A DNA stretch of 49,819 bases, from NCBI GenBank assembly GCA_029265715.1, contig JAJUGZ010000021.1:1-49819 (forward strand). The letters run 5' to 3'. The position numbers and the translations under genes were made by a program. The DNA is from Bacteroidota bacterium (lineage in GTDB: Bacteria > Bacteroidota > Bacteroidia > Bacteroidales > Prolixibacteraceae). The notes under the pieces are model-generated. The model was not told the origin of the DNA. It ran no database searches and saw nothing but the letters and a program-made list of their open reading frames with translations. Positions 3,569 to 37,355 of the stretch are shown in pieces; the stretch's first letter is position 1, and each line of letters begins with the position of its first letter.

Positions 3569-3580
3569 ATTAAAAAGAGT

Positions 3581-5470
3581 ATGAAAAAGTATAGAATAAA
3601 AACAGTATTGGCTTTTTTAACATTCGTTTTGGGTGCCTGGGGGATAATTTCGTGCGAGGACTATCTCGATAAGGCTCCCCTAAGTGACATCGATGCAGAA
3701 GAAGCATTTAAAAATTTTAAAAATTTCCAGGGTTTCACCGAAGAATTGTACAATTGCATTCCCATAACCAACTCGGCCGACTACCACAACAGTATTGATT
3801 TAGGCGAAGATGTGTATTGGGAACCGGGCGACCAACGGCCATTGGCATATTCAATTGACCAAGGTAACTATTGGGCATGGAACCAAACTGCTTATGGTTG
3901 GTTTAGGGCAGGAGGTTCGCCCAATAGCAATAGCCGCTTTGATAAAAACCGTCTCTGGGGCTTGTCGTGGTATGCTATCCGAAAAGCTAATATCGGGCTT
4001 GCCAACCTTGACAAACTGGTCGATGCTACTGACGAAGAGAAAAACCTTATTGCAGGGCAGTTGTATTTTTTCCGCGGTTGGTTCCACTTTATGCTTATGC
4101 AGTATTGGGGAGGGCTCCAATATATCGATCAGGTTTTGCCTTCTGATATGGTATTTCGTCTTCCACGGTTGAATTACCAGGAAACAGCCAATAAAGCTGC
4201 CGCCGATTTTCAAAAAGCAGCCGATTTGCTGCCTGTTAACTGGGACGAAACAACTGTAGGAAAGGCTACTCTTGGGAACAACAACCTTCGAATCAACAAA
4301 ATCATGGCGTTAGCCTATTTGGGCAAAAACCTTCTTTGGGCAGGCAGTCCGTTAATGAACGAAGAGTCAACCGGTAACCAATCGTACAACACCGAGTATT
4401 GCAAAAAAGCAGCCGATGCTTTTGCTCAAGCTCTGCAGCTTTGCGAATCGACAGGACGGTATGCTTTGGCCGACTTTTCCAAATACAGGGAAATATTTTA
4501 TACCTACAACCAAAGTGGGAAGATACCTGGATTAAAAGAAGCCATTTTTATGGAAAACTTATCCGAATCGGGTGGTCGTTGGCGTTGGAACCAGGTGAAC
4601 GATTACCGTCCGATGACCATTAATGCTTCAGGGCTTAAAGTTTACCCAACCGCCAACTACGTTGATTATTACGGAATGGCTAATGGGATGCCTATTACCG
4701 ATCCAACGAAGAAGGATCCTGAATCAGGTTACGATCCAGAATATCCCTGGAGAAACCGGGATCCTCGTTTTTACAACGATATCATTATCGATGGCGAAAA
4801 GTGCTGTTTGAACAGTGCCGGGAACTTGGCCGAAAACCGGCAGTATGCTAGTTTATATACTGGTGGTTTATATCGTACCAGCAATGGGACCAAAGCCGTT
4901 TTAACCGGTTACATGAACTCAAAACTTACATCGAAATTGATGAACGATTTTGATGGATATAAAGAAAATAATGTAACCGTTATGAGTTTTATGCGCCTGG
5001 CCGATGTTTATCTGATGTATGCAGAAGCAACTGCGGTTGGCTATGGTACTCCGCAAAGCAAAGCAGATAAATATAACCTTTCGGCAGTTGATGCCATCAA
5101 TAAAATACGCGATAGGGCAGGCGTGGGACATGTGGCCAGTAAGTTCTTAGGAAGTACTGAAAGTTTCTTGGGAGAAGTGCGTCGCGAGCGTGCCGTTGAG
5201 TTGGCTTTCGAAGGCCACCGTTTTGTAGACTTGCGCCGCTGGCTGTTGTTAACCGAAAGGCCCTATACGTTGAAAATGGCTATCGAGTTCGATCGTGCCA
5301 TGGATATTCCCAACAGCGAGTTATACAAAGATCCTAAAAACGGACATGTTTTGAATTATCGATACACGGTTTTGTTTGAACGGAAATTGAGTAAGAAACA
5401 CTACTGGTTCCCGTTCCCGAAAGAAGATGTGAATATGTACAAGGAGTTCAAACAGAATCCGGGATGGTAA
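3581..5470 (+). CDS. SusD-like surface glycan-binding lipoprotein (first pair)
   Basis: A 629-residue SusD/RagB family lipoprotein that caps the upstream SusC and delivers glycan to it at the cell surface. The signal peptide ends in a lipobox with Cys25, followed by Glu-Asp (CEDYLD). That acidic stretch is of the kind that directs surface export in Bacteroidota. Tetratricopeptide-like helices fill the N-terminal half. The C-terminal SusD signature appears in RRERAVELAFEGHRFVDLRR, and the protein ends with the usual Pro-Gly-Trp type tail (NPGW). It lies 12 bases after susC, so it is co-transcribed. Confidence 0.95.
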   Translation: MKKYRIKTVLAFLTFVLGAWGIISCEDYLDKAPLSDIDAEEAFKNFKNFQGFTEELYNCIPITNSADYHNSIDLGEDVYWEPGDQRPLAYSIDQGNYWAWNQTAYGWFRAGGSPNSNSRFDKNRLWGLSWYAIRKANIGLANLDKLVDATDEEKNLIAGQLYFFRGWFHFMLMQYWGGLQYIDQVLPSDMVFRLPRLNYQETANKAAADFQKAADLLPVNWDETTVGKATLGNNNLRINKIMALAYLGKNLLWAGSPLMNEESTGNQSYNTEYCKKAADAFAQALQLCESTGRYALADFSKYREIFYTYNQSGKIPGLKEAIFMENLSESGGRWRWNQVNDYRPMTINASGLKVYPTANYVDYYGMANGMPITDPTKKDPESGYDPEYPWRNRDPRFYNDIIIDGEKCCLNSAGNLAENRQYASLYTGGLYRTSNGTKAVLTGYMNSKLTSKLMNDFDGYKENNVTVMSFMRLADVYLMYAEATAVGYGTPQSKADKYNLSAVDAINKIRDRAGVGHVASKFLGSTESFLGEVRRERAVELAFEGHRFVDLRRWLLLTERPYTLKMAIEFDRAMDIPNSELYKDPKNGHVLNYRYTVLFERKLSKKHYWFPFPKEDVNMYKEFKQNPGW

Positions 5471-5544
5471 GTTGAAAATTATAGAGCATTGCCTGTCTCG
5501 ACAGCAAATGTCGATGGTCAACTAATTTTAAAATTAGCGATAAA

Positions 5545-8361: not shown

Positions 8362-8371
8362 TAACCTTAAA

Positions 8372-10153
8372 ATGAAATTGAATATGAGAAAAAATATATT
8401 GCTTATACTGGTGGCTGTTCTGCTGTTTTCAAGCTGTGAAGATGTTTTTACTCCGGAGCCTGAAAACTTTAAGGATGTAGACCAAATGTACTCCGACTCC
8501 CGATATGCCCAAGGATTTTTGGTTAACGCTTACCGAACCATTCCGGCTTACTACGATAATAGCGATTATGCAACCGACGATGCGGTTACAAACCTGAAAG
8601 GCAACAACTATTTGCTGATGGCAACCGGTTCGTGGACTGCGGCCAATAATCCAGTTAACCGTTGGACCGATGCTTATGGGGCTATTCAAAACATCAACCT
8701 GTTCCTTCAAAATGTAAGTAAGGTTAAATGGGCTGAAGATGAGTCGGCTGCAAAACTTTTTGAGATGAGGATGAAAGGTGAAGCCTATGGAATGCGCGGC
8801 CTGTTTTTGTACTACCTGTTGCGTGCACATGGCGGCTTTTCTGCCGATGGGAAATTGATGGGGGTACCCATTCTGACCAGCTTTTTAAATGCACAATCGG
8901 ATTTTAATTTGCCGCGTGCTACATTCGAAGAATGTGTGCAACAAATTCATCGTGATTTAGACAGCGCAATTTATTATTTGCCGATTGAGTATATCGATAT
9001 TACTTCGGATAACGACATTCCTGCGCGCTTAAAAAGTTTTGTTACACGCAAGGAGGTTTACAATCGTGTAATGGGACAATATGCCCGACAATTGATGAAT
9101 GGTCAAATTGCCAGGGCTTTTAAAGCAAGAGTCTCCCTTTGGGCTGCCAGTCCTGCATTTCAAGATGCCTCCAATACCACTACTTGGAAAGATGCAGCAA
9201 ATTATGCTGCCGTTGTGCTCAACTACATTGGTGGTGTTAGCGGACTAGATCCTCAGGGGCATACTTTCTATGCCAACACGACCGAAATCGATGCATTAAA
9301 AGAAGGGATCAATCCCAAAGAAATCATCTGGAGAGAAAACTTGTCGACCAACAATACAGCACAAGAAGAGGCAAACTTTCCACCATCACTATTTGGTAAA
9401 GGAAACATGAACCCGACACAAAACCTGGTCGATGCGTTCCCAATGGCTAATGGTTATCCGATTACCAATAATGCCAGTGCTTATGATCCGAAAGATCCTT
9501 ACAGTGGTCGCGATCCTCGACTTGCCAAATACATTATTTACAACGGTTGCAAGGCCGGGGTTTCCAATTCTGTAATTAATACCAGTTCGGTATCGGGCAC
9601 CGACGATGGGATTAACATCAAAGAAACATCAACCCGCACCGGGTATTACATGAAGAAGCGTCTGCGCATGGATGTGAACATCAATCCATCGTCGAAAACC
9701 GGTAAAACACACTATACCCCGCGCATTCGTTATACCGAAATATTTTTGGATTATGCCGAAGCCGCAAATGAGGCTTGGGGGCCCAAAGGTATGGGTAATA
9801 ATACTTTTTCGGCTTACGATGTAATCAAAGCTATTCGTAAACGTGCAGGCGTAGGGGTAAGCAATGGAGATCCTTATTTGGAAGAGTGTGCAACCAATAA
9901 GGACAAAATGCGGGAGTTGATTCGCAATGAGCGTCGCCTCGAGTTATGCTTCGAAAGCTTCCGTTTTTGGGATTTGCGCCGATGGAAAGCCAATCTGAAT
10001 GAACCAGCGTTGGGTATGAATTTCGATGGGACAAATTACAATGTATTTAACGTTGAAGATCGTTCCTTTGAAGATTACATGTATTATGGCCCTATTCCGT
10101 ATTCCGAAATACTGAAATATAGCAATCTGGTTCAAAATAGAGGTTGGAAGTAG
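8372..10153 (+). CDS. SusD-like surface glycan-binding lipoprotein (second pair)
   Basis: A 593-residue SusD/RagB lipoprotein paired with the compact SusC just upstream. The lipobox Cys is residue 22 (FSSCEDVF), followed by acidic residues consistent with surface export. Met5 (8384) is an equally good start and would keep the signal peptide. The C-terminal signature NERRLELCFESFRFWDLRRW is typical, and the protein ends NRGWK. It is much diverged from the first SusD. The following gene is separated by 154 bases that contain a copy of the dispersed palindrome. Confidence 0.94.
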   Translation: MKLNMRKNILLILVAVLLFSSCEDVFTPEPENFKDVDQMYSDSRYAQGFLVNAYRTIPAYYDNSDYATDDAVTNLKGNNYLLMATGSWTAANNPVNRWTDAYGAIQNINLFLQNVSKVKWAEDESAAKLFEMRMKGEAYGMRGLFLYYLLRAHGGFSADGKLMGVPILTSFLNAQSDFNLPRATFEECVQQIHRDLDSAIYYLPIEYIDITSDNDIPARLKSFVTRKEVYNRVMGQYARQLMNGQIARAFKARVSLWAASPAFQDASNTTTWKDAANYAAVVLNYIGGVSGLDPQGHTFYANTTEIDALKEGINPKEIIWRENLSTNNTAQEEANFPPSLFGKGNMNPTQNLVDAFPMANGYPITNNASAYDPKDPYSGRDPRLAKYIIYNGCKAGVSNSVINTSSVSGTDDGINIKETSTRTGYYMKKRLRMDVNINPSSKTGKTHYTPRIRYTEIFLDYAEAANEAWGPKGMGNNTFSAYDVIKAIRKRAGVGVSNGDPYLEECATNKDKMRELIRNERRLELCFESFRFWDLRRWKANLNEPALGMNFDGTNYNVFNVEDRSFEDYMYYGPIPYSEILKYSNLVQNRGWK

Positions 10154-10307: not shown

Positions 10308-11342
10308 ATGAAAAAGAATAAAATATTTTGGGCACTCGTGGCAATGGCCGCCGTGCTTAGCTCGTGCGAAAACCAGGATGTCACATATCCCGACTTCGAC
10401 TATCAGACTGTTTATTTCGCTAACCAGTATCCGGTAAGGACTGTCGAACTTGGTGAAGATATGTTTGTTGATAACTCGCTTGACAACCAACGGAAAGTTG
10501 AGATCAAGGCAACTATGGGTGGTGTATATTCGAATAAAAAGAACATTGAAATTGATATTAAGGTTGATACATCGCTGTGTACAGGAATGTATTTTGTGAG
10601 TAGCAATGCGAAAGTTGTACCCATGCCTGCAGAATATTATCAGTTAGAATCAAACAAAATAACTATTCCTTCTGGAAGTATTTTGGGTGGCGTTGAAGTG
10701 CAGCTGACCGATGCGTTTTTTAACGATCCCAAATCGCTGGTGAATACCTATGTGATTCCGTTGTTAATGACAGATGTTAATGGTGCCGATTCGATTTTGC
10801 AAGGCCAGCCTTTAGTTGCTAACCCAAACCGTTGCATCGATTCAAATTGGAGTATTAAACCCCGCGATTTTGTGCTTTACTGTGTGAAGTATGTTAATCC
10901 ATGGGCCGGTAACTATTTGCGCCGTGGCACCGATCAAATAACTAACCCCGATGGTTCGGTAACCACCTCCGTAAGGCATAAACAATATGTTGAAAATGAC
11001 GAGGTGGTTAAAATTACCACCAACAGCCTGAACATGTCAACTCTTCCCATTTCGGTTAAAGACAATGTCGGGAAGACGGTTACCTACAATCTGCAGCTTA
11101 CCTTCACCGACGGTGAGAATTGCACCGTCGGTGGTAGTAATGCTACTTACGACATCACTGGAAGTGGTAAGTTTGTTTCGAAGGGTGAGAAAAATAGCTT
11201 TGGGGGAAAAGACAGAAATGCATTGTATCTGGACTATACTGTAACCTTTAAAGCTACCAACCTTAAATATGCTACGAAGGATACCTTAGTAGTTCGCGAC
11301 AGGGGTATTGCACCTGAATATTTTACAGTGATTAAAAAGTAA
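10308..11342 (+). CDS. DUF1735/DUF5627-type surface glycan-binding lipoprotein
   Basis: A 344-residue lipoprotein with lipobox Cys20 (LSSCENQD) and no catalytic motif. The N-terminal half (about 25-165) resembles DUF1735 domains of PUL-encoded surface proteins. The C-terminal half (about 190-340) is beta-rich and resembles DUF5627. Proteins like this commonly sit directly after susD and act as extra surface glycan-binding proteins. It closes the import operon: a strong intrinsic terminator follows 10 bases after the stop. Family names are from memory of sequence style; the role is inferred from position and the lipoprotein signal. Confidence 0.75.
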   Translation: MKKNKIFWALVAMAAVLSSCENQDVTYPDFDYQTVYFANQYPVRTVELGEDMFVDNSLDNQRKVEIKATMGGVYSNKKNIEIDIKVDTSLCTGMYFVSSNAKVVPMPAEYYQLESNKITIPSGSILGGVEVQLTDAFFNDPKSLVNTYVIPLLMTDVNGADSILQGQPLVANPNRCIDSNWSIKPRDFVLYCVKYVNPWAGNYLRRGTDQITNPDGSVTTSVRHKQYVENDEVVKITTNSLNMSTLPISVKDNVGKTVTYNLQLTFTDGENCTVGGSNATYDITGSGKFVSKGEKNSFGGKDRNALYLDYTVTFKATNLKYATKDTLVVRDRGIAPEYFTVIKK

Positions 11343-13600: not shown

Positions 13601-17345
<3,745 letters not shown>

Positions 17346-17405
17346 CCGGTAAAAAATCAATGGGTTACAGGCTGTTTTGCAATATCCGGATGGCCAATAA
17401 AAATC

Positions 17406-17450
17406 GTTCGGGTTCTGTTTTTCTGCTATGAAGCAAAACAGAACCCGAAC
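17406..17450. repeat. Long perfect hairpin between CE1 genes
   Basis: A 16-base perfect inverted repeat (17406-17421 and 17435-17450) closes a 13-base loop inside the 192-base gap between the first and second CE1 genes. No T tract follows on the plus strand; a T-rich run follows on the minus strand side (about 17398-17404 read in reverse). It is more likely an RNA-processing or stabilising stem within the operon than a plus-strand terminator. Confidence 0.7.
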
Positions 17451-17507
17451 TCCGAATTCCCCGTCGTTACAGTCTTGCAGCAGCCTGATACGCAATCGGA
17501 AAAATAA

Positions 17508-18695
<1,188 letters not shown>

Positions 18696-18697
18696 AG

Positions 18698-19867
18698 ATG
18701 AAGATATTGGCAATGTTGAAATCGATGGCAAGGGTCACTTTGTTGGTGTTCATTTGCACCTTATCAATTGAAATGGCAAAGGCTCAGATGGTTGAAAATT
18801 CCGTGCCGGCACCCACCAACATTAACCAAACCCAGTGCCCGTGCATTTTGCCCGACAATAGCGTTGTTTTTCAGGTAAAAGCGCCCAATGCGCAGAAAAT
18901 ACAAATTGACCTCGGTAAAAAATACGACATGGTGAAAGGTGCCGATGGTGTTTGGAGTGTCCGCACAAAACCCATTGTTCCCGGCTTTCATTACTACTTT
19001 CTGGTGATCGACGATGTGCCGGTTGCCGATCCTGCAAGCCAGTCGTTTTTTGGGACAGGGAAAATGGCAAGTGCCATCGACATACCCGAAAAAGGAGCCG
19101 ACTTTTACACGGTGAAAGATGTGCCACACGGGGCGATATGCTCAAAATACTACTTTTCATCGGTAACCAATAGTTGGCGCAGGCTCTTTGTTTACACGCC
19201 TCCGGGGTATGAAGCAAACCCCAGCGTAAAATACCCGGTGGTTTACATCCAGCATGGTGGCGGCGAAGATGAAACCGGATGGGCTAACCAGGGGAAAACC
19301 GATATAATTCTCGACAATCTGATTGCCGAAGGAAAAGCAAAACCGATGCTTGTAGTCATTGCCAACGGAAACGTGAGCGCAGGTGGTGGGGGCTACAGCA
19401 GTGAAGCAATGGCAAGTTTTAAAACGGAGATGACAGAGAATATTGTTCCTTTTATCGACAAAAGCTTCAGAACGTTGGCCAATCCCAAGAACCGTGCAAT
19501 GTGCGGTTTGTCGATGGGGGGCGGGCAGTCGTTTTATGTCGGGCTGCAAAGCCTCGATGTTTTCGGTTCGGTGGGTATTTTTAGTTCTGGTATTTTCGGC
19601 GGCATCCGCAACCCTTCGGGCAGCACCTTCGATGCCGAAAAGGAAATCCCCGGATTGCTGTCAAAATCTGCTGAGTTCAATAAAAAACTCGACCTGTTTT
19701 ACATCTCGTGTGGCGAGCAGGATATGCGCATTGAGCATACAAAAAAAGCGGTGGAAACAATGAAGAAAAGCGGGCTTGAGGTTGAATTCAACTCTTTCCC
19801 CGGCGACCATGAGTGGCAGGTGTGGCGTAAATCGCTCCATGATTTTGCTTCAAGGGTTTTTAAATAG
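18698..19867 (+). CDS. CE1-type esterase 3 with N-terminal CBM48-like domain
   Basis: A 389-residue member of the same tandem array. The start lies two bases after the stop of esterase 2, implying translational coupling. The signal peptide ends near residue 30 (MAKAQ), followed by the Ig/CBM48-like module and the hydrolase domain. The nucleophile is Ser272 in CGLSMGGGQ, the acid is Asp in CGEQD, and the His lies in GDHEWQVW. This triad matches the classical feruloyl-esterase-like Ser-Asp-His arrangement more closely than the other three copies do. The glycine-rich loop after the NGN motif is unlike its neighbours. Confidence 0.88.
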   Translation: MKILAMLKSMARVTLLVFICTLSIEMAKAQMVENSVPAPTNINQTQCPCILPDNSVVFQVKAPNAQKIQIDLGKKYDMVKGADGVWSVRTKPIVPGFHYYFLVIDDVPVADPASQSFFGTGKMASAIDIPEKGADFYTVKDVPHGAICSKYYFSSVTNSWRRLFVYTPPGYEANPSVKYPVVYIQHGGGEDETGWANQGKTDIILDNLIAEGKAKPMLVVIANGNVSAGGGGYSSEAMASFKTEMTENIVPFIDKSFRTLANPKNRAMCGLSMGGGQSFYVGLQSLDVFGSVGIFSSGIFGGIRNPSGSTFDAEKEIPGLLSKSAEFNKKLDLFYISCGEQDMRIEHTKKAVETMKKSGLEVEFNSFPGDHEWQVWRKSLHDFASRVFK

Positions 19868-19876
19868 CATGTTAGA

Positions 19877-19910
19877 CAGAGGCACACCGAGAAAACACAG
19901 AGTTTCACAG
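19877..19910. repeat. Short intergenic repeat-like sequence
   Basis: The gap between esterases 3 and 4 begins with a CACAGAG/TTTCACAG-style sequence of a kind I recall as common between genes in Bacteroidota. A weaker relative (ACCACAGAAAAGCATAAACT) follows the nitronate monooxygenase gene near 44034. Its function is unknown. Confidence 0.3.
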
Positions 19911-19968
19911 AAAAATATTAAGTAAAAAATGATGTTGACATACCTGAACCACATTAAAGATAAATACC

Positions 19969-21153
19969 ATGAATAAATTCTGGACTTATATTGTTGGCTT
20001 TCTTTTGATAATGCCTTTTGCTATAAAAGCGCAGCAAGCCAACGTGAATCTCGATTACAATCCGCAAAAAGATACAGAGGGATTAATCCCGTTCAGCGCT
20101 CCGGTCAATTCGCCCGAAGTACACGATGACCATACGGTAACATTCCGGTTGAAAGCCCCAAATGCACAAAAGGTAGTTCTGCCAACCGAGGCAATTTACA
20201 CGGCCAATAATTTGGGCAGCGAACCACTTCCGTTCACCAAAGGCCCCGATGGGATTTGGACATTGACCATTGGCCCGTTAAAACCCGACATGTACGCTTA
20301 CCATTTCAATGTCGATGGCGTTCAGATTCCTGATCCAAGCAATACCTACGCTGCTTTTACGGCCATGCCACCTTATAGCGAGTTGATTGTTCATGGCGAC
20401 GGACCAGCGTATTACGATGCAAAGAATGTACCCCACGGCAATGTTACGCGCCATATTTATCACTCCGACGTAACCAATGGTGAACGTGAGATTTATGTGT
20501 ACACACCCCCGGGGTACGACCCTAAAAAAGAATATCCGGTGTTGTATCTCTTAGGCGGTAGTGGTGAGCTTCCTTCCAACTGGGTTTACGATGGCAGGGT
20601 CAACTTCATTATGGATAACCTGTTGGCCGAAGGGAAAGTTAAACCGATGATTATTGCCATTCCCAACAACCAGGTAGTTCACCGCAACCACCCCAAACAT
20701 GCGGACTTAACGTTTGATATTTTTGAAAAAGAGATGCGGAACCATGTGATCCCGCTGATCGACAATAGCTACAAAACAATCCGTTCACCTAAAGGAAGGG
20801 CAATTTCAGGCTTGTCGATGGGCGGTAGGCATAGCATGTTTGTAGGTTTCCGGTCGCTCGATTTATTTGCCAACTTTGGCATCCTCAGCGCTGGCGATGT
20901 CGATGCCGAGACTTCGCTGGCCAAATTCTTAAACGACCCCAAAGTGAACGAAAAGGTCGATTACCTTTTTGTAGGCCAGGGTACCGAAGAGGCAAAAGGT
21001 TTCATGGGAAAACGTTGCCAGGTGTTGCATGAAGCACTTGCCAACCACAATGTCAAGCATGAATATTATGTGGGGGGATATGGCGGGCACGAATGGAATA
21101 CCTGGCGCCACCTGCTATATTACAGGTTTTTACCAAATCTTTGGAGGAAATAG
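19969..21153 (+). CDS. CE1-type esterase 4 with N-terminal CBM48-like domain
   Basis: A 394-residue esterase, the most diverged of the four tandem copies. The signal peptide ends near residue 23 (IKAQQ). The CBM48/Ig-like module is longer, with a different loop (EAIYTANNLGSEPLPFTKGP). The hydrolase domain carries Ser283 in SGLSMGGRHS, a possible acid Glu in GQGTEE, and the His in GGHEWNTW. The oxyanion-side motif LLGGSGELPSNW replaces the LQHG pattern of the other three copies. It is followed by a MITE-like element. Confidence 0.87.
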   Translation: MNKFWTYIVGFLLIMPFAIKAQQANVNLDYNPQKDTEGLIPFSAPVNSPEVHDDHTVTFRLKAPNAQKVVLPTEAIYTANNLGSEPLPFTKGPDGIWTLTIGPLKPDMYAYHFNVDGVQIPDPSNTYAAFTAMPPYSELIVHGDGPAYYDAKNVPHGNVTRHIYHSDVTNGEREIYVYTPPGYDPKKEYPVLYLLGGSGELPSNWVYDGRVNFIMDNLLAEGKVKPMIIAIPNNQVVHRNHPKHADLTFDIFEKEMRNHVIPLIDNSYKTIRSPKGRAISGLSMGGRHSMFVGFRSLDLFANFGILSAGDVDAETSLAKFLNDPKVNEKVDYLFVGQGTEEAKGFMGKRCQVLHEALANHNVKHEYYVGGYGGHEWNTWRHLLYYRFLPNLWRK

Positions 21154-21166
21154 GAAATAATAAACA

Positions 21167-21305
21167 GATTGTTTTGCTCCGCTCGCAATGACGGCTCTAT
21201 GTCTTTTGTAGGAGGGATGGAGGAAGGTTTGGCGGCAAAGCCGCCAAACCTTCCTCCCAAAATAGCTCTTCAATGTCTCGTCATCGCGAGCAACGCGAAG
21301 CAATC
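21167..21305. repeat. MITE-like element with terminal inverted repeats and an internal hairpin
   Basis: The 27-base ends 21167-21193 and 21279-21305 are imperfect inverted repeats (21 of 27 positions match). Inside lies an 18-base perfect inverted repeat (21219-21236 and 21240-21257) with only a 3-base loop. The end sequence (CGAGCAACGCGAAGCAATCC) belongs to a widespread class of intergenic repeats whose spurious translation reads SRHREQREAIP. It lies between esterase 4 and the carboxylesterase gene and may act as a bidirectional terminator or RNA-processing site. Confidence 0.75.
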
Positions 21306-21344
21306 CCCAATTTTACACGGATATATATAATTAAAAACCAGAAT

Positions 21345-22913
21345 ATGAAACGAATCAACGTCCTAATCATTACAGTGTTTGCCCTTATTTTGGGCGCTTG
21401 CACAAAATTACCGCTTAACCAGGTGAAAACCGAACAAGGAATTGTTCAGGGAACAATCGAAGACAGTTTGCGTGTTTTCAAAGGCATTCCGTTTGCCGCG
21501 CCACCTGTTGGCGATTTGCGATGGAAAGCCCCACAGCCTCCTGCAAAATGGGATGGCGTTAAAATGACAACCGAGTTTGCCCCGGCAGCCATGCAGGGAG
21601 GAAACCCTCCATCGGGGAAAAGCGAAGACTGCCTTTACCTGAATATCTGGACACCCGCAATGTCGGCCAACGAAAAAATCCCGGTCATGGTTTACATTTA
21701 TGGCGGTGGGTTTAGTGGCGGAAGTACTTCCGAACCATGGATCAGTGGCGAGAAGCTGGCAAAAAAAGGTGTTGTGCTGGTTAGCATTGCTTATCGGGTC
21801 AACCAGTTTGGGTTCCTGGCACACCCTGAATTAAGTGCCGAAAGCCCGAACCATGTTTCAGGGAATTACGGGATACTCGACCAGATTGCCGCCCTTCAAT
21901 GGGTTAAGAAAAACATTGCCGCGTTTGGTGGCGACCCGTCAAAAGTGACCATCTTTGGCGAATCGGCAGGGGCTATTTCGGTCAGCATGTTATGCGCTTC
22001 GCCATTGGCAAAGGGGTTGTTCAGCGGGGCTATTTCGCAAAGCGGCGGTTCGTTTGGCCCAACCCGCCCAACTACTTATCCGGGCGAGAATATGAAAACC
22101 CTTGCACAGGCCGAGAAAGATGGCGAAGTCTATCTGCAAAAAGCCGGGGTTGCTTCAATTGCCGAACTTCGCAAAATTGAGGCCGATAAAGTACCTTCCG
22201 GTTTTGGCATGGTTGGTGGCTGGCCTATTGTCGATGGCTATGTGATCCCCGACGATCAGCACAAATTATATGAAGCTGGAAAATACAACGATGTGCCTGT
22301 TCTGATCGGGTATAATTCCGACGAAGGGGCAAGTTTCACCTGGGTCAGGTCGACCGAAGATTTTGTTTCGGGCATAAAAACACGGTATGGCAAATTTGCC
22401 GATGCCTTGTTAGAAGCCTACCCGCTCGATTCGGGCAACGTAGTGGGCAAAACAGCCCGCGACCTCTCGCGCGATGCCGCTTTTGGCTGGCAAACCTGGG
22501 CCTGGGCAAACCTTCAGGCAAAAACAGGCAAATCGAAAGTGTTTTACTATTACTTCGACCAACACCCCGATTACCCTAAGGGCTCGCCCCGCTACGGGTA
22601 CGGTTCGCCTCATGCACAGGATGTTTCGTACGTTTTTCAGCATTTAGACACTTCAAATCCTGAAATAACAAAGGCCGATCTTGACCTTTCGGAAGCAATG
22701 GCGACCTATTGGACCAACTTTGCCAAATATGGAAACCCCAATGGGAACGGGCTTCCCGAATGGCCGGCTTTCACTCCCGAAAAGCCCGATGTGATGTACC
22801 TTACCGGCCCAACGCCTTTTGTAGGCCCGGTCCCCAGTGCTAAATCGCTTGAGGTGTTAGACCGTTATTTTGAATGGCGCAGGTCGCCCGAAGGTGCTGA
22901 ATGGGCTAAATAA
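21345..22913 (+). CDS. Type-B carboxylesterase lipoprotein
   Basis: A 522-residue COesterase-family alpha/beta hydrolase. The start at 21345 is chosen because it gives a lipoprotein signal (LILGAC, Cys19). A longer frame opening at 21273 would translate the upstream repeat. Catalytic residues are Ser207 in FGESAGA, Glu327 in NSDEGAS and His423 in GSPHAQD, the classical Ser-Glu-His triad. The YGGGF oxyanion motif (119-123) and the SEDCLYLN signature (93-100) are present. It probably removes acyl or aromatic esters from the glycan or from released oligosaccharides. It is membrane anchored, unlike the CE1 copies. The gap to the next gene is 29 bases. Confidence 0.9.
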   Translation: MKRINVLIITVFALILGACTKLPLNQVKTEQGIVQGTIEDSLRVFKGIPFAAPPVGDLRWKAPQPPAKWDGVKMTTEFAPAAMQGGNPPSGKSEDCLYLNIWTPAMSANEKIPVMVYIYGGGFSGGSTSEPWISGEKLAKKGVVLVSIAYRVNQFGFLAHPELSAESPNHVSGNYGILDQIAALQWVKKNIAAFGGDPSKVTIFGESAGAISVSMLCASPLAKGLFSGAISQSGGSFGPTRPTTYPGENMKTLAQAEKDGEVYLQKAGVASIAELRKIEADKVPSGFGMVGGWPIVDGYVIPDDQHKLYEAGKYNDVPVLIGYNSDEGASFTWVRSTEDFVSGIKTRYGKFADALLEAYPLDSGNVVGKTARDLSRDAAFGWQTWAWANLQAKTGKSKVFYYYFDQHPDYPKGSPRYGYGSPHAQDVSYVFQHLDTSNPEITKADLDLSEAMATYWTNFAKYGNPNGNGLPEWPAFTPEKPDVMYLTGPTPFVGPVPSAKSLEVLDRYFEWRRSPEGAEWAK

Positions 22914-22921
22914 TTTATTGA

Positions 22922-23788
<867 letters not shown>

Positions 23789-29038: not shown

Positions 29039-31075
29039 ATGACAAGAGCGACTACGATATTTAGAACACTGATTTTATTCTTTGTCTTTCACTTGGCAAC
29101 AATAGGCTCTATATCTGCCCAAACCGTTTGGCTCGACGAGCTTGACCTAAGTACAGCCACACAAGGCTATGGCGTACCCCAGAAAAACAAATCGTGCGAT
29201 GGCAAAACACTTACCATTGCGGGCGAAACCTTTGAACGAGGCTTTGGCAGCCACTCTGAAAGTTTGTTAACCATCCTCTTAGAAGGAAAAGCAACCTTGT
29301 TCACCGCCAAGGTGGGTATCGACGACGAGGTGAAAGGCCAGCGTCCGGCTGCCGAATTTATCGTGAACGGCGATGGCAAACAGCTTTGGTCGAGCGGAAT
29401 TATGCACCTGGGCGATGCCGCCAAGCCCTGCTCGGTGAAGCTCGATGGTGTGAAAAAATTGGAATTGTTGGTAACCGATGGGGGAAACGGCAACTATTAC
29501 GACCATGTTGACTGGGTAGATGCCAAATTTGAAACCACAGGCGTTACTACTTTCAAAACCTTTAACCCGGTTTCAAGTGAAATATACATACTTACCCCAA
29601 AACCAGCCGCTACGCCCAGATTGACCGGGGCCAAAGTGTTTGGCGTTCGCCCGGGGTCGCCATTTCAGTTTTTGGTAACAGCAACTGGCGACCGGCCCAT
29701 GACTTTCTCGGCCAAAGGATTACCCAAAGGATTGAAAATTGATGAAAAAACAGGCTTAATCACCGGTACGATTTCTTCAAAAGGCACTTATAAAGTAACA
29801 CTGGTTGCCAAAAATGCAAAAGGAAAGGCCGAGCGTCAGTTCCGCATTGAATGCGGCGACCAAATTGCGCTTACCCCGCCTATGGGATGGAACAGTTGGA
29901 ACTGTTTTGCCCAAGAGGTTTCAGCCGACAGGGTAAAACGCGCCGCCAATGCTATGGTGAGCAGTGGCCTCATTAACCACGGTTGGACCTACATCAACAT
30001 CGACGATTTCTGGGAAAACCACCGCGACTCGAAAGACCAATCGTTGCGTGGAAAATTTCGCGATGAAAATGGCTACATCATCCCCAACTCTCGCTTTGTC
30101 GATATGAAAGCCCTTGCCGACTATGTGCATGGCCTTGGGTTGAAAATTGGGCTTTATTCTTCGCCCGGACCCTGGACTTGCGGAGGTTGTGCAGGTAGTT
30201 TTGGCTACGAAAAACAAGATGCCGAAAGCTACGCCCAATGGGGTTTCGATTACCTGAAATACGACTGGTGCAGCTACGGAAACGTAATTAACGGCTTGCC
30301 CGAAAACGACCCTTACAAAGTCTCTTCGCTATCGTACAACGGAGGTAGTCAGCTCGAAACAGCCCAAAAGCCTTTTATTTTAATGGGCGATTTGTTGAAA
30401 AAGCAGAAACGCGACATCCTTTTCAGCGTGTGCCAATACGGAATGTCGGACGTGTGGAAATGGGGCGGATCGGTTGGCGGCAACTGCTGGCGAACCACCA
30501 ACGACATTACCGACACCTGGGCAAGCGTGAAGGGCATTGCCCTCGACCATGAAAAATCGGCCCCTTATGCAAAACCCGGTAACTGGAACGACCCCGACAT
30601 GCTGGTGGTTGGCCACGTGGGATGGGGCAACACGCATCCAAGTAAGCTGAAACCCGACGAACAATACCTGCACATCAGCTTGTGGAGCCTTTTTGCCGCA
30701 CCTCTTTTGATTGGTTGCGACATGGAAAAACTCGATGATTTCACGCTCAATTTACTTACCAACGACGAAGTGATCGACGTGAACCAGGACCCGCTTGGCA
30801 AACAAGCTACCTGCCAACACACCATTGGCGAAATGCGCATTTATGTGAAGGAGCTCGAAGACGGGAGCAAAGCTGTAGGATTTTGCAATTTCGGCCTCGA
30901 AAAAATTCAAATGAATTACACCGACTTTGCCAAACTTGGACTGAACGGGAAATTCACCGTGCGCGACCTTTGGCGGCAAAAAGATGTAGCTAAAGTTAAT
31001 GCTACAAACGGCGAACTTGCCATCGAGGTTCCTGTTCATGGGGCGTTGCTCTATAAATTTTCACCAGCTAAATAA
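29039..31075 (+). CDS. GH27 alpha-galactosidase/beta-L-arabinopyranosidase with NPCBM and Ig-like domains
   Basis: A 678-residue exported enzyme. After a signal peptide (ends SISAQ, residue 28) comes an NPCBM domain (about 29-165), a putative Ig-like domain (about 200-270), and the GH27 TIM barrel starting at LTPPMGWNSWN (278-288). The nucleophile is Asp409 in YLKYDWC and the acid/base is Asp489 in WRTTNDI; WNDPDML follows. A C-terminal antiparallel beta domain ends the protein. GH27 members hydrolyse alpha-galactosides and in some cases beta-L-arabinopyranosides. It is functionally redundant at family level with the GH97 at the start of the operon, which suggests two different capped side chains. 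Confidence 0.92.
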   Translation: MTRATTIFRTLILFFVFHLATIGSISAQTVWLDELDLSTATQGYGVPQKNKSCDGKTLTIAGETFERGFGSHSESLLTILLEGKATLFTAKVGIDDEVKGQRPAAEFIVNGDGKQLWSSGIMHLGDAAKPCSVKLDGVKKLELLVTDGGNGNYYDHVDWVDAKFETTGVTTFKTFNPVSSEIYILTPKPAATPRLTGAKVFGVRPGSPFQFLVTATGDRPMTFSAKGLPKGLKIDEKTGLITGTISSKGTYKVTLVAKNAKGKAERQFRIECGDQIALTPPMGWNSWNCFAQEVSADRVKRAANAMVSSGLINHGWTYINIDDFWENHRDSKDQSLRGKFRDENGYIIPNSRFVDMKALADYVHGLGLKIGLYSSPGPWTCGGCAGSFGYEKQDAESYAQWGFDYLKYDWCSYGNVINGLPENDPYKVSSLSYNGGSQLETAQKPFILMGDLLKKQKRDILFSVCQYGMSDVWKWGGSVGGNCWRTTNDITDTWASVKGIALDHEKSAPYAKPGNWNDPDMLVVGHVGWGNTHPSKLKPDEQYLHISLWSLFAAPLLIGCDMEKLDDFTLNLLTNDEVIDVNQDPLGKQATCQHTIGEMRIYVKELEDGSKAVGFCNFGLEKIQMNYTDFAKLGLNGKFTVRDLWRQKDVAKVNATNGELAIEVPVHGALLYKFSPAK

Positions 31076-31084
31076 TTGAAGTAA

Positions 31085-34000
31085 ATGAATATAAATTCAA
31101 TAAAAATAGTTGCGGGTGCACTGCTTTTATCATTGTTCATCACAAACAATGCAAATGCACAAGACAAACTTTACCCCAACGAATTTCCTTTGTCGGATGT
31201 AACGTTGCTCGATGGACCTTTTAAACATGCCCGCGACCTGAACCTTCAGGTATTGCTTAAATACGACGTGGACCGCCTTTTGGCACCCTATCGGAAAGAA
31301 GCAGGCTTGCCCGAAAAGGCAAAGAGTTATCCTAACTGGGATGGGTTAGATGGCCATGTGGGCGGCCATTACCTATCGGCCATGGCCATGTATTATGCCG
31401 CCTTGGGGAATGCCGAATGCAAAAAGCGCATGGATTACATGATTTCGGAACTCAAAGCCTGTCAGGAAGCCAATGCTAAAAACAACCCGGCCTGGGGAGT
31501 GGGCTACGTGGGCGGAGTGCCCAAAAGTGCCGAATTATGGTCGAAGATAAAAGAAGGAAATGCGGGGGTAATATGGAGTGCCTGGGCACCTTGGTACAAC
31601 ATTCATAAAATGTACGCCGGGCTCCGCGATGCCTGGCTTTATGCCGGAAACGAAGAGGCAAAAAACCTTTTCCTTAAGTTTTGTGACTGGGGAATCGACG
31701 TAACCTCGAACCTCAGCGATGCAAAAATGGAAGAAATGTTGGGCAACGAACATGGAGGGATGAACGAAATGTATGCCGATGCCTACCAGATGACCCGCGA
31801 CGAAAAATACCTTACTGCCGCCAAACGTTTTTCGCACAAGGCTTTTCTCGATCCCCTATCGCAGGGCAACGATGTGCTTGACAATCAACATGCCAACACA
31901 CAAATCCCAAAATTTATCGGGTTCGAACGAATTGCCGAGCTGAGCCACGATGAGAAATACCAAAAAGCCGCCAGCTTCTTTTGGGAAACGGTTACCCAAA
32001 ACCGCTCGCTGGCTTTTGGCGGTAACAGTCGCAGGGAGCATTTCCCAAGTGTTACCTCGTGCATCGACTTTGTGACCGTGAACGATGGCCCCGAGTCGTG
32101 CAACTCGTACAACATGCTAAAGCTCACCGAAGACGTGTTCCGCATGAGACCATTGGCCAAATATGCCGACTACTATGAACGTACCATCCTTAACCATATT
32201 CTTTCAACCCAACATCCTGAACACGGTGGATATGTGTATTTTACATCGGCTCGTCCGCGCCACTACCGGGTATATTCAGCACCCAACGAAGCCATGTGGT
32301 GCTGTGTGGGTACGGGCATGGAGAACCACGGGAAATACAACCAATTTATCTATACCCGTTCGAAAGACACCTTGTATGTAAATCTTTTTATTGCCTCGGA
32401 ATTGAACTGGAAAGAGAAAGGTTTGAAAATAAAGCAAGAAACAAAGTTTCCTTTTGAAGAACAAACCCAGTTTTCCATAACCGAAGGCTCGGGGAATTTC
32501 AAGTTGATGCTCCGCCATCCGTCGTGGGTGCGCAAAGGAGAATTGAAAATTTCAGTTAATGGTAAAGATGTAAAATACACAGTGCTTCCATCGAACTACA
32601 TCAACATTGAGCGCAATTGGAAAAAGGGCGATAAGGTGAAGGTGTTGCTGCCCATGCACAACCACATTGAGCATTTGCCCAACGTGCCCGAATATGTGGC
32701 CTTTATGCACGGCCCAATTTTACTCGGAGCCAAAACCGGTACCGAAGATTTAAAAGGACTTATTGCCGACGATGGCCGTTGGGGGCAATATGCCGGTGGA
32801 GAATATCTACCAGTTGACAAAGCTCCAATTTTGGTTTACGACGACATTGAAAATATTGCCCAAAAGTTAGTGCCAGTTAAAGGGAAACCATTGAATTTTA
32901 AGCTCGATGTAAAAATGGTAAACCCCATGGAACTTACCCTTGAGCCGTTTTACCAAATTCACGATGCGCGGTACATGATGTACTGGCTGGCCCTCACCAA
33001 CTCGGGCTACAAGGCCTATACCGATTCGTTGACCAAAATAGAAACGGCGAAATTGGAACTTGAGAAACGCACCATCGACTATGTGATGCCCGGCGAACAG
33101 CAGCCCGAAACCGACCATGCCATGCAAGTGGAAAAATCGAACAAAGGCAACAACATGAACGAATTTTTCCGTGAGGCACGCGATGGGGGCTATTTTAGCT
33201 ACGATTTGGCCACCAACGGCGAGACCAACCTCAGCCTGTTTGTCCGTTACTGGGGAGCTGAATGGGGAAGCCGCAAATTCGACATTTACATCGACAATGA
33301 AAAACTGGTTTCCGAAGACAATAGCAACCGTTGGAACCTGTCGCAGTTTCAGAATATCGTTTATCCCATCCCCGATTCAATGGTCAAAGGCAAAAAACAC
33401 ATCAGGGTTAAATTTCAGGCAGCACAAGGTTCAACAGCCGGAGCAGTGTATGTGGTTAGGTTGTTGAGGGCAGGGGAAACGAAAAGTCCTGCATCGAAGG
33501 AAAGCGGCACTTCCAACATTCCCGCCCCCAGAGTAGTGGAAGATGGAGGAACCGGCCTGTATAGTGCCATTATGTACACCGATAGCACGCTGTTAACCCA
33601 TACCATATTTCGTCCGAAAGATCTAAGTGTTTTTGGACATAAAACCAAGTTACCAATTATTGCCTGGGGTAATGGCGCTTGCGCCAACTCACCATGGGAG
33701 CATATCAACTTTTTATCTGAAGTGGCCTCGCACGGATTTTTGGTGATTGCCATTGGCCCTATGCCTAAGGAAGGTGAACGGGGCGGTGGCCGGTCAACAT
33801 CCTCACAATTGATCGATGCCATAAATTGGGCTATTGCACAGAACAGCAACAAAGCCAGTGTGTTTTACAACAAAATTGATGTTTCGAAAATAGCGGTTAG
33901 CGGTATGTCGTGTGGTGGTTTACAAACGCTTGAAACTGCCCCTGACCCACGCGTTACCACTGCGGTGATCTGCAATAGTGGTATTATTGGCAATGGCGGA

Positions 34001-34336
34001 GGAATGTCCGGAATGCCTGCTTTAACAAAAGACCATCTGGCCAAGTTGCATACGCCAACTCTCTATTTGCTTGGAGGCGAAAAGGATATCGCTTACAAGA
34101 ACGGCATGGACGACTTTAGCAGGATAAACCATGTTCCGGTTTTTGTAGCCAATATGGATGTTGGACATGGCGGTACTTACAGCCAGCCTCATGGAGGCGA
34201 GTTTGCCAAAGTGGCAACTGCCTGGTTTAAATGGCAATTAAAAGGCGATAAGGAAGCCGCCAAAATGTTTACCGGAAACCCGTGCCAGCTTTCCAAATCA
34301 ACAGTTTGGAAAGTTGAAAAGAAGAATTTGCCATAG
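31085..34336 (+). CDS. Two-enzyme fusion: GH146/GH127 beta-L-arabinofuranosidase plus C-terminal esterase
   Basis: A 1083-residue exported protein (signal ends NANAQ, residue 26). Residues about 30-650 are a DUF1680-type (alpha/alpha)6-barrel with beta-sandwich. The zinc/nucleophile cluster Glu337 and Cys339 (GPESCNSY) and Cys406-Cys407 (WCCVGTG) matches the Glu-Cys-Cys-Cys set of GH127 beta-L-arabinofuranosidases, with the sequence style of the related GH146. A second beta-sandwich covers about 680-795. From about 800 a complete alpha/beta-hydrolase is fused: Ser942 in VSGMSCGG, a probable Asp in GGEKD, and His1028 in VGHGG. The reading frame is continuous through the junction. One polypeptide could therefore remove both an ester and the beta-L-arabinofuranose. 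Assignment to GH146 rather than GH127 is a judgement. Confidence 0.88.
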   Translation: MNINSIKIVAGALLLSLFITNNANAQDKLYPNEFPLSDVTLLDGPFKHARDLNLQVLLKYDVDRLLAPYRKEAGLPEKAKSYPNWDGLDGHVGGHYLSAMAMYYAALGNAECKKRMDYMISELKACQEANAKNNPAWGVGYVGGVPKSAELWSKIKEGNAGVIWSAWAPWYNIHKMYAGLRDAWLYAGNEEAKNLFLKFCDWGIDVTSNLSDAKMEEMLGNEHGGMNEMYADAYQMTRDEKYLTAAKRFSHKAFLDPLSQGNDVLDNQHANTQIPKFIGFERIAELSHDEKYQKAASFFWETVTQNRSLAFGGNSRREHFPSVTSCIDFVTVNDGPESCNSYNMLKLTEDVFRMRPLAKYADYYERTILNHILSTQHPEHGGYVYFTSARPRHYRVYSAPNEAMWCCVGTGMENHGKYNQFIYTRSKDTLYVNLFIASELNWKEKGLKIKQETKFPFEEQTQFSITEGSGNFKLMLRHPSWVRKGELKISVNGKDVKYTVLPSNYINIERNWKKGDKVKVLLPMHNHIEHLPNVPEYVAFMHGPILLGAKTGTEDLKGLIADDGRWGQYAGGEYLPVDKAPILVYDDIENIAQKLVPVKGKPLNFKLDVKMVNPMELTLEPFYQIHDARYMMYWLALTNSGYKAYTDSLTKIETAKLELEKRTIDYVMPGEQQPETDHAMQVEKSNKGNNMNEFFREARDGGYFSYDLATNGETNLSLFVRYWGAEWGSRKFDIYIDNEKLVSEDNSNRWNLSQFQNIVYPIPDSMVKGKKHIRVKFQAAQGSTAGAVYVVRLLRAGETKSPASKESGTSNIPAPRVVEDGGTGLYSAIMYTDSTLLTHTIFRPKDLSVFGHKTKLPIIAWGNGACANSPWEHINFLSEVASHGFLVIAIGPMPKEGERGGGRSTSSQLIDAINWAIAQNSNKASVFYNKIDVSKIAVSGMSCGGLQTLETAPDPRVTTAVICNSGIIGNGGGMSGMPALTKDHLAKLHTPTLYLLGGEKDIAYKNGMDDFSRINHVPVFVANMDVGHGGTYSQPHGGEFAKVATAWFKWQLKGDKEAAKMFTGNPCQLSKSTVWKVEKKNLP

Positions 34337-34497: not shown

Positions 34498-36258
34498 ATG
34501 AAAAAAAGTTTGTTCGCTATCATTTCTTCCAAAGGAAGAGCTGTCATGCTTTTAGTGGCTTTTACAGCCCTGTTTTCGCCAATGGTTTTTAGTCAGGCCG
34601 CCAATTCGCCTTTGTTTACCAATTTTGTGTACGAGGGCAACGACCAGGTTTATATCGACAACCCGCTGAGACCCGGCGAGTTTTATAACCCCATTTTGCA
34701 GGGTTGTTATCCCGACCCGAGCGTTACCCGCAAAGGCGATGATTATTATCTTGTTACTTCCACTTTTGCCATGTTCCCGGGCGTCCCGATTTTTCATTCA
34801 AACGATTTGGTGAACTGGAAACAAATTGGGCATGTACTCGACCGCAAATCGCAGTTAGTTGTTCACGACTGCGGAATCAGCGCCGGTATTTATGCCCCGC
34901 AGATTCTGTACAACAAAAACAACGACACGTTTTATATGATAACTACTCAGTTTTCAGGAGGTTTTGGCAATATAGTGGTGAAGACCAAAGATCCGATGAA
35001 AGGTTGGAGCGACCCGATAAAGTTGGATTTTAATGGCATCGACCCCTCGCTTTTCTTCGACGATAACGGGAAAGGTTATGTGGTTCACAACGATGCGCCC
35101 GACCCGGGAAAAGAATTGTACAATGGTCACCGGGTAATTAAAATCTGGGAGTATGATGTGGATAAAGACAAAATAATTCCCGGAACCGACAAAATTATTG
35201 TGGATGGAGGTGTTGACCTTTCGAAAAAACCAATCTGGATTGAAGCACCACACATTTATAAGAAAAATGGGAAATATTACCTGATGTGTGCCGAAGGTGG
35301 CACCGGTGGCTGGCACAGCGAAGTGATTTTTGTGAGCGACAATCCCAAAGGGCCCTACATCCCGGCTCCAAACAATCCGATTCTTACCCAGCGATATTTT
35401 GCCAACGACCGCGTCAATAAAGTCGATTGGGCTGGTCACGCCGACCTGGTTTTAGGTCCCGATAATAAAACATATTACGGTGTTTTTCTGGCTGTTCGCC
35501 CCAACGAAAAACAACGGGTAACCACCGGACGCGAGACATTTATTCTGCCAGTTGACTGGTCGGGTGAATTCCCTGTTTTTGAAAATGGCTTGATCCCGCT
35601 GGAACCAAAATTGAAAATGCCTGCCGGGGTAACCGAAAACAAAGCCGGGAAAGATGGATTTTTCCCCAACGGAAACTTCACGTTTAAAGATGATTTCAGT
35701 GCTGAAAAGCTGGATTACCGCTGGATTGGGTTACGCGGTCCGCGCGAAGATTTTATTTCAACGTCAAAACAAGGGTTGATAATTAAACCGTTTGAAACAA
35801 ACATCAAAGAAGTAAAGCCAACCTCAACACTGTTTTACCGACAGATGCACAAACGTTTTTCGTATTCGGTGAGCATGAAGTATAAGCCTGCATCAGAAAA
35901 AGACCTGGCCGGAATTGTGGCGCTGCAAAGCGAACGGTTCAACTATGTTTTCGGTATTACCAAAAAAGGGGCCGATTATTACATCTTGCTGGAACGGACT
36001 GAGGGAAAATTCAGAAGTCGCGAAACCGAATCGAAAATTGTGGCTAGTGCCAAAATCGACCTTAGTAAACCGGTTCGGCTACAGGTTTCGGCCAATGGCG
36101 ACGATTATCAGTTCAGGTATTCAACTAACGGAACCGACTTTATCAATTTGGGTGGAACTGTTTCGGGCGACATTCTTTCAACCGATGTGGCCGGTGGGTT
36201 TACCGGTTGTTTGCTGGGATTGTATGCAACCTCGGCGAACAATGCTGTGCCTGAATAA
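34498..36258 (+). CDS. GH43 glycoside hydrolase with C-terminal beta-sandwich
   Basis: A 586-residue exported GH43 of the beta-xylosidase/arabinofuranosidase type. The signal peptide ends near residue 33 (VFSQ). The catalytic set is Asp73 (CYPDPSV), Asp182 (GIDPSLFF) and Glu249 (WIEAPH). The C-terminal half from about residue 397 (FKDDFS) is the GH43-associated concanavalin-like beta-sandwich, which contributes to the active site in such xylosidases. A 161-base AT-rich gap precedes it, the largest gap within the second half of the operon, so an internal promoter there is possible although no clear element was seen. A 14-base palindrome overlaps its stop codon. Confidence 0.88.
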   Translation: MKKSLFAIISSKGRAVMLLVAFTALFSPMVFSQAANSPLFTNFVYEGNDQVYIDNPLRPGEFYNPILQGCYPDPSVTRKGDDYYLVTSTFAMFPGVPIFHSNDLVNWKQIGHVLDRKSQLVVHDCGISAGIYAPQILYNKNNDTFYMITTQFSGGFGNIVVKTKDPMKGWSDPIKLDFNGIDPSLFFDDNGKGYVVHNDAPDPGKELYNGHRVIKIWEYDVDKDKIIPGTDKIIVDGGVDLSKKPIWIEAPHIYKKNGKYYLMCAEGGTGGWHSEVIFVSDNPKGPYIPAPNNPILTQRYFANDRVNKVDWAGHADLVLGPDNKTYYGVFLAVRPNEKQRVTTGRETFILPVDWSGEFPVFENGLIPLEPKLKMPAGVTENKAGKDGFFPNGNFTFKDDFSAEKLDYRWIGLRGPREDFISTSKQGLIIKPFETNIKEVKPTSTLFYRQMHKRFSYSVSMKYKPASEKDLAGIVALQSERFNYVFGITKKGADYYILLERTEGKFRSRETESKIVASAKIDLSKPVRLQVSANGDDYQFRYSTNGTDFINLGGTVSGDILSTDVAGGFTGCLLGLYATSANNAVPE

Positions 36259-36271: not shown

Positions 36272-36398
36272 ATTACGCTACAAATAGATTGGATGATATG
36301 AAACGAGCATGTTTATATCAAAACAAGGATGAATTGAATCAAAGTGAAAATTGCAACATGCGAGTTCCATCCGACAACTTAAAATAAATTATTTCCGG

Positions 36399-37355
36399 AT
36401 GAAGATTAACATCATCACCATCGTTCTTGGATTTTGGGCTATTGCACAGGGCAATGCCCAAAATCCAATTATCAGGCACATTTTTACTGCCGACCCGGCA
36501 CCGCTGGTATATCACGATACCTTGTTTTTGTACACGGGGCACGATACAGCTTCGGTTTCGGCCACTAACTACAAAATGCCCGACTGGCAGGTATTTTCAA
36601 CCACCGACATGGTGAACTGGAAGCACTATGGCACCTGTTTGTCGCCAAAAACCTTTTCGTGGGCAACGGGCGATGCTTATGCCGCACAGTGTGTCGAGCG
36701 TAACGGTAAATTTTACTGGTTTGTGTCCACCTTTCACAAAGCCGACGAAAACAGCAAAGGTGGTGCTGCTATTGGAGTAGCTGTTTCCGACAGGCCAACC
36801 GGCCCGTTTAAAGATGCAATTGGCAAAGCGCTGATTGTGAATGAAATGACAACCGATGTAAAGCACGGCTGGGACGACATCGACCCGACTGTTTTTATCG
36901 ACGACAACGGGCAAGCCTATCTGTATTGGGGAAATCTGAGCTGCCGGTATGTTAAACTGAAAGAAAACATGACAGACCTGGATGGTCCGATAAACTTTCT
37001 GAAGATCAGGAATTTTATTGAAGGTCCCTGGATTTACAAACGAAATGGAATTTATTACCTCGTATATGCCAGTGTGGGCACTAAACCCGAAATGATTGAA
37101 TACTGCACCTCCAAAAGTTTTGAAGGGCCGTGGGAATACCAGGGGATCATTCAGGAAAATGTAGAGAACAGTTTTACAACGCATCCCGGAATAATCGACT
37201 ACAAAGGGAAGTCGTATTTCTTTTATCACAATGGGGCGCTTCCAACAGGAGGCAGTTACCGCCGTTCGGTGTGTGTTGATTACATGTACTACAACGAAGA
37301 TGGGACCATTCAGAAAATTATTCAAACAAAAGAAGGGGTAAAACCGATAAAATAA
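36399..37355 (+). CDS. GH43 glycoside hydrolase without CBM
   Basis: A 318-residue exported GH43 enzyme. The start at 36399 gives a normal signal peptide (MKINIITIVLGFW, ending GNAQ at about residue 21); the frame is also open from 36351, but that would put 16 polar residues first. The triad is Asp32 (TADPAPL), Asp162 (DIDPTVF) and Glu208 (IEGPW). It is paralogous to the GH43 domains at 23809 and 27612 but ends directly after the propeller, with no CBM6. It probably acts on soluble oligosaccharides in the periplasm. The next gene follows after 9 bases. Confidence 0.88.
   Translation: MKINIITIVLGFWAIAQGNAQNPIIRHIFTADPAPLVYHDTLFLYTGHDTASVSATNYKMPDWQVFSTTDMVNWKHYGTCLSPKTFSWATGDAYAAQCVERNGKFYWFVSTFHKADENSKGGAAIGVAVSDRPTGPFKDAIGKALIVNEMTTDVKHGWDDIDPTVFIDDNGQAYLYWGNLSCRYVKLKENMTDLDGPINFLKIRNFIEGPWIYKRNGIYYLVYASVGTKPEMIEYCTSKSFEGPWEYQGIIQENVENSFTTHPGIIDYKGKSYFFYHNGALPTGGSYRRSVCVDYMYYNEDGTIQKIIQTKEGVKPIK

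Follow-up and report, generated by a model that had tools for sequence, protein, structure and literature searches.

In this locus, a single gene encodes both a predicted beta-L-arabinofuranosidase and a predicted esterase. The window, that is, the whole 49,819-nucleotide stretch of DNA that was analysed, contains one ATG-started frame of 1083 amino acids at 31085..34336 (+) with no internal stop codons. An earlier note on this DNA had described a complete glycosidase followed in frame by a hydrolase as one polypeptide. This description held, as the 1083 codons are open and both halves were matched in Pfam and the PDB, and the residues that it had named (E337, C339, C406, C407, S942 and H1028) are all at the positions it gave. 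When the translation was inspected by eye, residues 1-26 (ending in NNANAQ; 31085..31162, +) were recognized as a putative signal peptide, the only export signal noticed in the fusion; the hydrolase domain has none of its own. The signal peptide is followed on the same (+) strand by a GH127/GH146 catalytic domain (residues 38-419; 31196..32341; PF07944, E 6.9e-108, and alignment to 5opj and 8k7x), a GH127 middle domain (Glyco_hydro127M, residues 429-524; 32369..32656; PF20736), a DUF4986 domain (residues 552-634; 32738..32986; PF16375) and a DUF6805 domain (residues 658-794; 33056..33466; PF20620), with the 5opj alignment extending up to residue 795. The DUF6805 region matches the C-terminal part of BT0349 and by inference would be a jelly roll. 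Comparison with standalone relatives placed the joint and linker at residues 795-819 (RAGETKSPASKESGTSNIPAPRVVE; 33467..33541, +), and Pfam, a PDB search, AlphaFold2 and Foldseek identified residues 820-1083 (33542..34333, +) as a PETase/lipase-like alpha/beta-hydrolase domain. A full-length model built from an 8-row alignment was too poor for domain placement (pLDDT 57.7, pTM 0.44). A Shine-Dalgarno-like start motif had no match across the whole window; Bacteroidota seldom use this motif, which makes its absence uninformative.

The N-terminal half is predicted to be a complete GH146-type beta-L-arabinofuranosidase. In a phmmer search of the PDB, fusion residues 15-795 aligned to BT0349 (5opj; E 1.5e-203), the closest solved structure, and GH146 was nearer than GH127, with 8k7x matching at E 1.1e-61 versus E 8.2e-07 for HypBA1 (3wkw, GH127). 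E337, C339, C406 and C407 align with E723, C725, C804 and C805 of Bll3HypBA1 (8k7x), so that the Zn-binding Glu-Cys-Cys-Cys set is present, and E318 aligns with the acid/base residue E694 of the same protein, whose chain numbering carries an offset of 378 that we derived by hand from the Cys pair. With the zinc-ligand, Cys nucleophile and acid/base roles in GH146 taken from PMC10850190, C406 would be the nucleophile and E318 the acid/base. W167 aligns with W160 of the 5opj chain, which we infer, with an offset of 2, to be the active-site W162 of BT0349. The C-terminal jelly roll of BT0349 shields its active site and oligosaccharides are the expected substrate, and BT1003, which falls in the same tree of relatives, hydrolyses aceric acid linkages as an aceric acid hydrolase (PMC10850190, excerpts). 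Elsewhere in this genome, the GH127/146 catalytic family has six more matches (contigs C113, C24, C120, C161, C101 and C30; L001-L003 and L005-L007); five are over the cut-off, and none of the six matches the fused GH146 at E 1e-100. The second long GH127-family protein of the genome (L005, 1019 aa) proved on inspection to contain no esterase; Laminin_G and Big_4 domains precede its GH127 domain.

The C-terminal half is predicted, from sequence and a structural model, to be a complete serine esterase of the PETase/Pseudomonas mendocina lipase structural type. PETase-like family PF12740 matched residues 874-960 (E 3.5e-08; 33.6 bits versus a curated cut-off of 28). Searching the PDB with phmmer matched residues 832-1081 to 9hl5, 9w68 and 9k0h and residues 810-1082 to 2fx5, with E values of 1e-20 to 3e-21 for the whole protein and 1e-21 to 2e-22 for the C-terminal part alone. 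An AlphaFold2 model of this half (56-sequence alignment) had a mean pLDDT of 91.4 and a pTM of 0.91, and Foldseek placed 9k0h, 9hl5 and 2fx5 at the top (E about 1e-20, 26-27% identity), followed among the best 50 matches by PETase and cutinase entries at 17-20% identity. The NCBIfam BHET hydrolase model scored 22.1 bits, below its cut-off of 520. The third triad residue, which the earlier note had left unnamed, is D1001. For conservation analysis, 135 homologous frames were reduced to 133 that matched over at least 230 residues and to 113 distinct domains after removal of identical ones; S942, D1001 and H1028 are invariant in 113/113, and likewise C866 and C943. C866 is in the likely oxyanion loop and C943 adjoins the nucleophile. 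This pair, which may form a disulfide, is absent from the three PETases compared by alignment.

That the fused esterase is unlike the CE1 copies of the locus was borne out. The fusion has GMSCGG and CE1 copies 1, 3 and 4 have GLSMGG; copy 2 reads GLSMG, lacking the second G. Neither PF00756 (CE1) nor PF20434 (BD-FAE) matched the fusion at E 0.001, and we assign the domain to neither type; Bi1040-FAE is presumably of the BD-FAE Pfam type (PF20434). Comparison with locus L044, which contains sequence of a same-genus genome (G005), gave dN values of 0.17 for GH146 and 0.07 for the esterase, with saturated dS values of 2.4 and 1.5. Since dN/dS is far below 1, both halves are under purifying selection, a signal that covers the whole comparison of the window with L044 and is not specific to the time since fusion. 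Together with the finding that this genome has no second esterase copy at E 1e-10, purifying selection makes it likely that the fused domain is working.

The setting of the gene resembles that of hemicellulose degradation. Upstream, an NPCBM plus GH27-type melibiase gene (29039..31075, +) ends 9 bases before the fusion ORF, and downstream lies a GH43 gene with a C2 domain by Pfam (34498..36258, +). The locus holds two SusC/SusD pairs, a BT_3987-like protein, GH97, GH3, four CE1, a carboxylesterase, CE6, six GH43, GH31, GH27 and GH9. The SusC/SusD pairs stand in tandem at the locus start (410-10153), followed by the BT_3987-like/DUF5627 protein (10308-11342), which probably binds glycans at the cell surface. 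Six consecutive esterase genes on the same strand, encoding the four CE1 paralogues, the carboxylesterase and CE6/SASA, occupy 16239-23788, and the fused domain brings the locus total to seven esterase domains. In the GH43 gene at 36351-37355, an in-frame ATG at MKINIITIVLGF starts a likely signal peptide, and the listed TTG start is probably too far upstream. To our knowledge, beta-L-arabinofuranose (beta-L-Araf) is not an established xylan substituent, which makes the substrate of GH146 in xylan-type loci doubtful. Esterase-rich arabinoxylan loci resemble this one in make-up (PMC7815789, excerpts), and a predicted glucuronoarabinoxylan locus of Dysgonomonas mossii contains a GH146, which its authors list among alpha-L-arabinofuranosidases (PMC8040265, excerpts). 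We also used tblastn at 1e-20 on 68 named loci that carry the esterase and are 10 kb or longer. One or more further homologues of the window glycosidases or esterases were found in 46 of the 68 (GH43 in 33, CE1 in 28 and GH146 in 7, two of these at about 30% identity). A xylan setting is thus common, not universal, because 17 of the 68 have no other homologue of the window locus proteins.

The earlier note had proposed looking for the same fusion in other genomes; across the family, order and class samples and the named loci, we saw it in this genome only. At E 1e-10 the esterase was found in 32 of 140 family genomes, and the 34 matches lie in frames of 1083 aa (this genome), 557 aa (G072 and G125) and 299-386 aa (the rest). 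Most relatives make the hydrolase on its own, as a protein of about 300-320 aa whose gene often lies in xylan-type loci rich in esterases, and GH146 likewise on its own at about 800 aa. The esterase was present in 24 of 393 genomes of the order sample at E 1e-20 and in 1 of 395 genomes of the class sample at E 1e-40, the one being this genome, with no further fusion. The family is therefore thinly spread outside the order; it is scattered through Bacteroidota and also occurs in a small number of MAGs that carry the labels Verrucomicrobia, Phycisphaerae or other phyla. Among the 80 best of 98 named esterase relatives, none is joined to GH146. From the other side, GH146 was found at E 1e-100 in 76 of the 140 family genomes (up to seven candidates scored per genome), and the window frame is the only one over 1000 aa among the matches listed, the next being 918. 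None of 32 distinct GH146 relatives with at least 60% identity (duplicate loci merged by eye) has an esterase at its C-terminus, and all 32 stop no more than about nine residues from a shared RL motif. Occurrence in one genome only leaves the protein without comparative support for working as a fusion. The suggestion that the combination was undescribed agrees with our literature search, in which open-access listings yielded no description of a GH146/GH127-esterase fusion. As far as these searches reach, the GH146-esterase combination is new and the fusion principle ordinary.

The likely origin of the join was apparent from three loci in which a standalone GH146 gene is followed, on the same strand and after a short spacer, by an esterase gene that also stands alone and encodes a signal peptide of its own. 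One is L044 and the others (L053 and L063) are two other lineages; the available sequence of L063 starts inside its GH146 gene. Standalone GH146 proteins stop near the start of the linker and the mature standalone esterase starts inside it. Here, the window reads VRLLRAGETKSPAS into KESGTSNIPAPRVVEDGG, the latter part resembling the mature N-terminus of standalone esterases; the frame is kept, and the stop codon of GH146 is absent together with the spacer and the signal peptide of the esterase. These losses point to two neighbouring genes having fused cleanly; a slip in base calling would not explain them. In a draft genome of 200 contigs, a fusion unique among the genomes searched might also come from an assembly that wrongly joined two separate genes. 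We consider this very improbable, as the GH146-then-esterase order recurs in the three loci and as the retained frame and mature esterase N-terminus, with stop, spacer and signal peptide missing, go beyond a base-calling error. On present evidence the fusion appears real.

The same gene order was seen more widely at greater distances. For 21 family genomes carrying both genes, we compared coordinates, using the best GH146 only and leaving out other esterase-bearing genomes. The two genes share a contig in 14 of the 21, always on the same strand with GH146 upstream (14/14), at distances of 118 to 50,428 bases, and only the G005 pair is adjacent; in the other 7 of 21 they are on different contigs. 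L080 has the same order with about 7 kb between the genes. The locus of the nearest esterase relative (L038) reads CE1, CE6, esterase, GH43, GH43; its downstream side is as in the window, with a homologue of the GH43/C2 gene directly 3' of the standalone esterase, and GH146 is absent. On a quick tree, the seven rows nearest to the window esterase are all standalone.

Fusion to other partners proved to be frequent in this esterase family. All 26 other frames over 440 residues (stop to stop) that contain the family were domain-scanned. The partner is CE6/SASA in L016, L019 and L057; CE1 in L061 and L104; GH8 in L069 and L111; GH97 in L111, L112, L113 and L131; BD-FAE in L108, L109, L117 and L133; GH43 with or without CBM6 in L114, L115, L128, L135, L136 and L137; a carboxylesterase in L110; and a beta-lactamase-like domain in L138, L139 and L140. 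No partner domain was found in L101 and L127. The quick tree of 114 domains, 24 of them labelled fused, requires no fewer than 10 switches between the fused and the standalone state. L135-L140 share only 34-40% identity with the esterase domain of the window and may be a separate subfamily.

These data bear on the claim of close proximity between the ester and the beta-L-arabinofuranose on the substrate. On that account a single residue or two neighbouring ones would bear both, as in an acylated terminal arabinose, and the enzyme would use its two sites in sequence on one side chain. Both domains are intact within one chain, and feruloylation at arabinose O-5 is the usual ferulate ester of arabinoxylan (PMC7815789, excerpts). 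However, the esterase is separate in most relatives and elsewhere joins at least seven other partner families (CE6, CE1, GH8, GH97, GH43, BD-FAE and carboxylesterase), and 32/32 GH146 relatives lack it. The fusion therefore does not show that an ester is present on beta-L-arabinose, and since gene neighbourhood accounts for the join, no shared substrate residue is needed. We regard this account as quite unlikely, and the claim was not supported. A bolder proposal is that the domain represents an undescribed family of xylan side-chain esterases with a PETase-like cleft for bulky aromatic esters (feruloyl groups and diferuloyl cross-links), repeatedly welded to neighbouring trimming enzymes, in which case the GH146 fusion would mark acylated beta-L-Araf side chains of complex xylans. 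We know of no established beta-L-arabinofuranose linkage in complex xylans, and we consider this proposal a long shot. It is also unlikely that the fusion is neutral, a deletion having joined two operon genes and been tolerated without benefit since both products share the exported compartment. Its presence in one genome only and the recurrence of esterase fusions to neighbouring kinds of gene would fit such an event, whereas the repeated changes between fused and alone, with several partners, hint at a benefit or at least at ease of fusion and are not decisive.

Our preferred explanation, to which we assign a probability of roughly 0.72, is that two fused neighbouring genes yielded a bifunctional exported PUL enzyme in which GH146 and a side-chain esterase co-deliver two trimming steps. 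It builds on a single frame with both sets of active-site residues and one predicted signal peptide, and on relatives that are separate and, in three loci, adjacent. Judging from the signal peptide recognized by eye, the fusion protein would be exported into the periplasm, where its GH146 half, as a retaining zinc-cysteine glycosidase, would remove terminal beta-L-Araf from imported oligosaccharides. The esterase half, through S942-D1001-H1028, would take an acyl group (acetyl or feruloyl) off side-chain fragments of (glucurono)arabinoxylan from that same pool. The benefit would be fixed 1:1 co-delivery of two trimming activities, which does not require attack on one acylated arabinose. Domain synergy has been reported for some multicatalytic enzymes and was lacking in several (PMC8417218, excerpts), and because of the latter, co-delivery is the safer reading.

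Among described proteins, the best published parallel is BeGH43/FAE of Bacteroides eggerthii, for which a crystal structure and both activities were reported (PMC7815789, excerpts). Like the window protein, it is related to an arabinoxylan locus and combines an N-terminal arabinose-releasing glycosidase with a C-terminal alpha/beta-hydrolase esterase in one chain. It differs in having a GH43 arabinofuranosidase where the window has GH146, and a Bi1040-FAE/tannase-like esterase where the window has a PETase/lipase-like one. BT0349, the GH146 founder, aligns over residues 15-795 including the Zn/Cys cluster and the C-terminal domain; it has no esterase and comes from an RG-I locus (PMC10850190, excerpts), whereas the window fusion is in a xylan-like locus. 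The CE15-GH8 multicatalytic PUL enzymes of Bacteroidota likewise combine an esterase with a further enzyme that acts on side chains or the backbone, with different families on both sides (PMC8417218, excerpts). In both sequence and structure, the esterase half is matched best by dsPETase05 (9k0h), HaloPETase1 (9hl5) and the P. mendocina lipase (2fx5); unlike these, the window esterase family has the invariant C866 and C943 and is often found in glycan loci. A CE6-CE1 multicatalytic enzyme of Bacteroidota reportedly also joins an esterase to another enzyme, and its families differ from those of the window. The fusion ties an apparently uncharacterized esterase family to hemicellulose side-chain removal, and the many partners of the family point to a general acyl-trimming role. 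The protein also provides a test case for synergy between an exo-glycosidase and an esterase and for the role of GH146 in xylan loci.

Several of the other fusions deserve mention in their own right. Where the esterase lies behind CE6/SASA, the result is a double esterase (L016:1501-3171, -; L019:637-2307, +; L057:7933-9813, +). A 1319-residue frame of a Bacteroidales MAG (L111:6607-10563, +) combines GH8, the esterase and GH97, and is apparently a three-activity enzyme. Finally, a more distant branch of the esterase family stands in front of a PF00144 beta-lactamase-family domain (L138:1411-3516, +; L139:1435-3525, +; L140:235-2358, -), an odd partner for a glycan locus.
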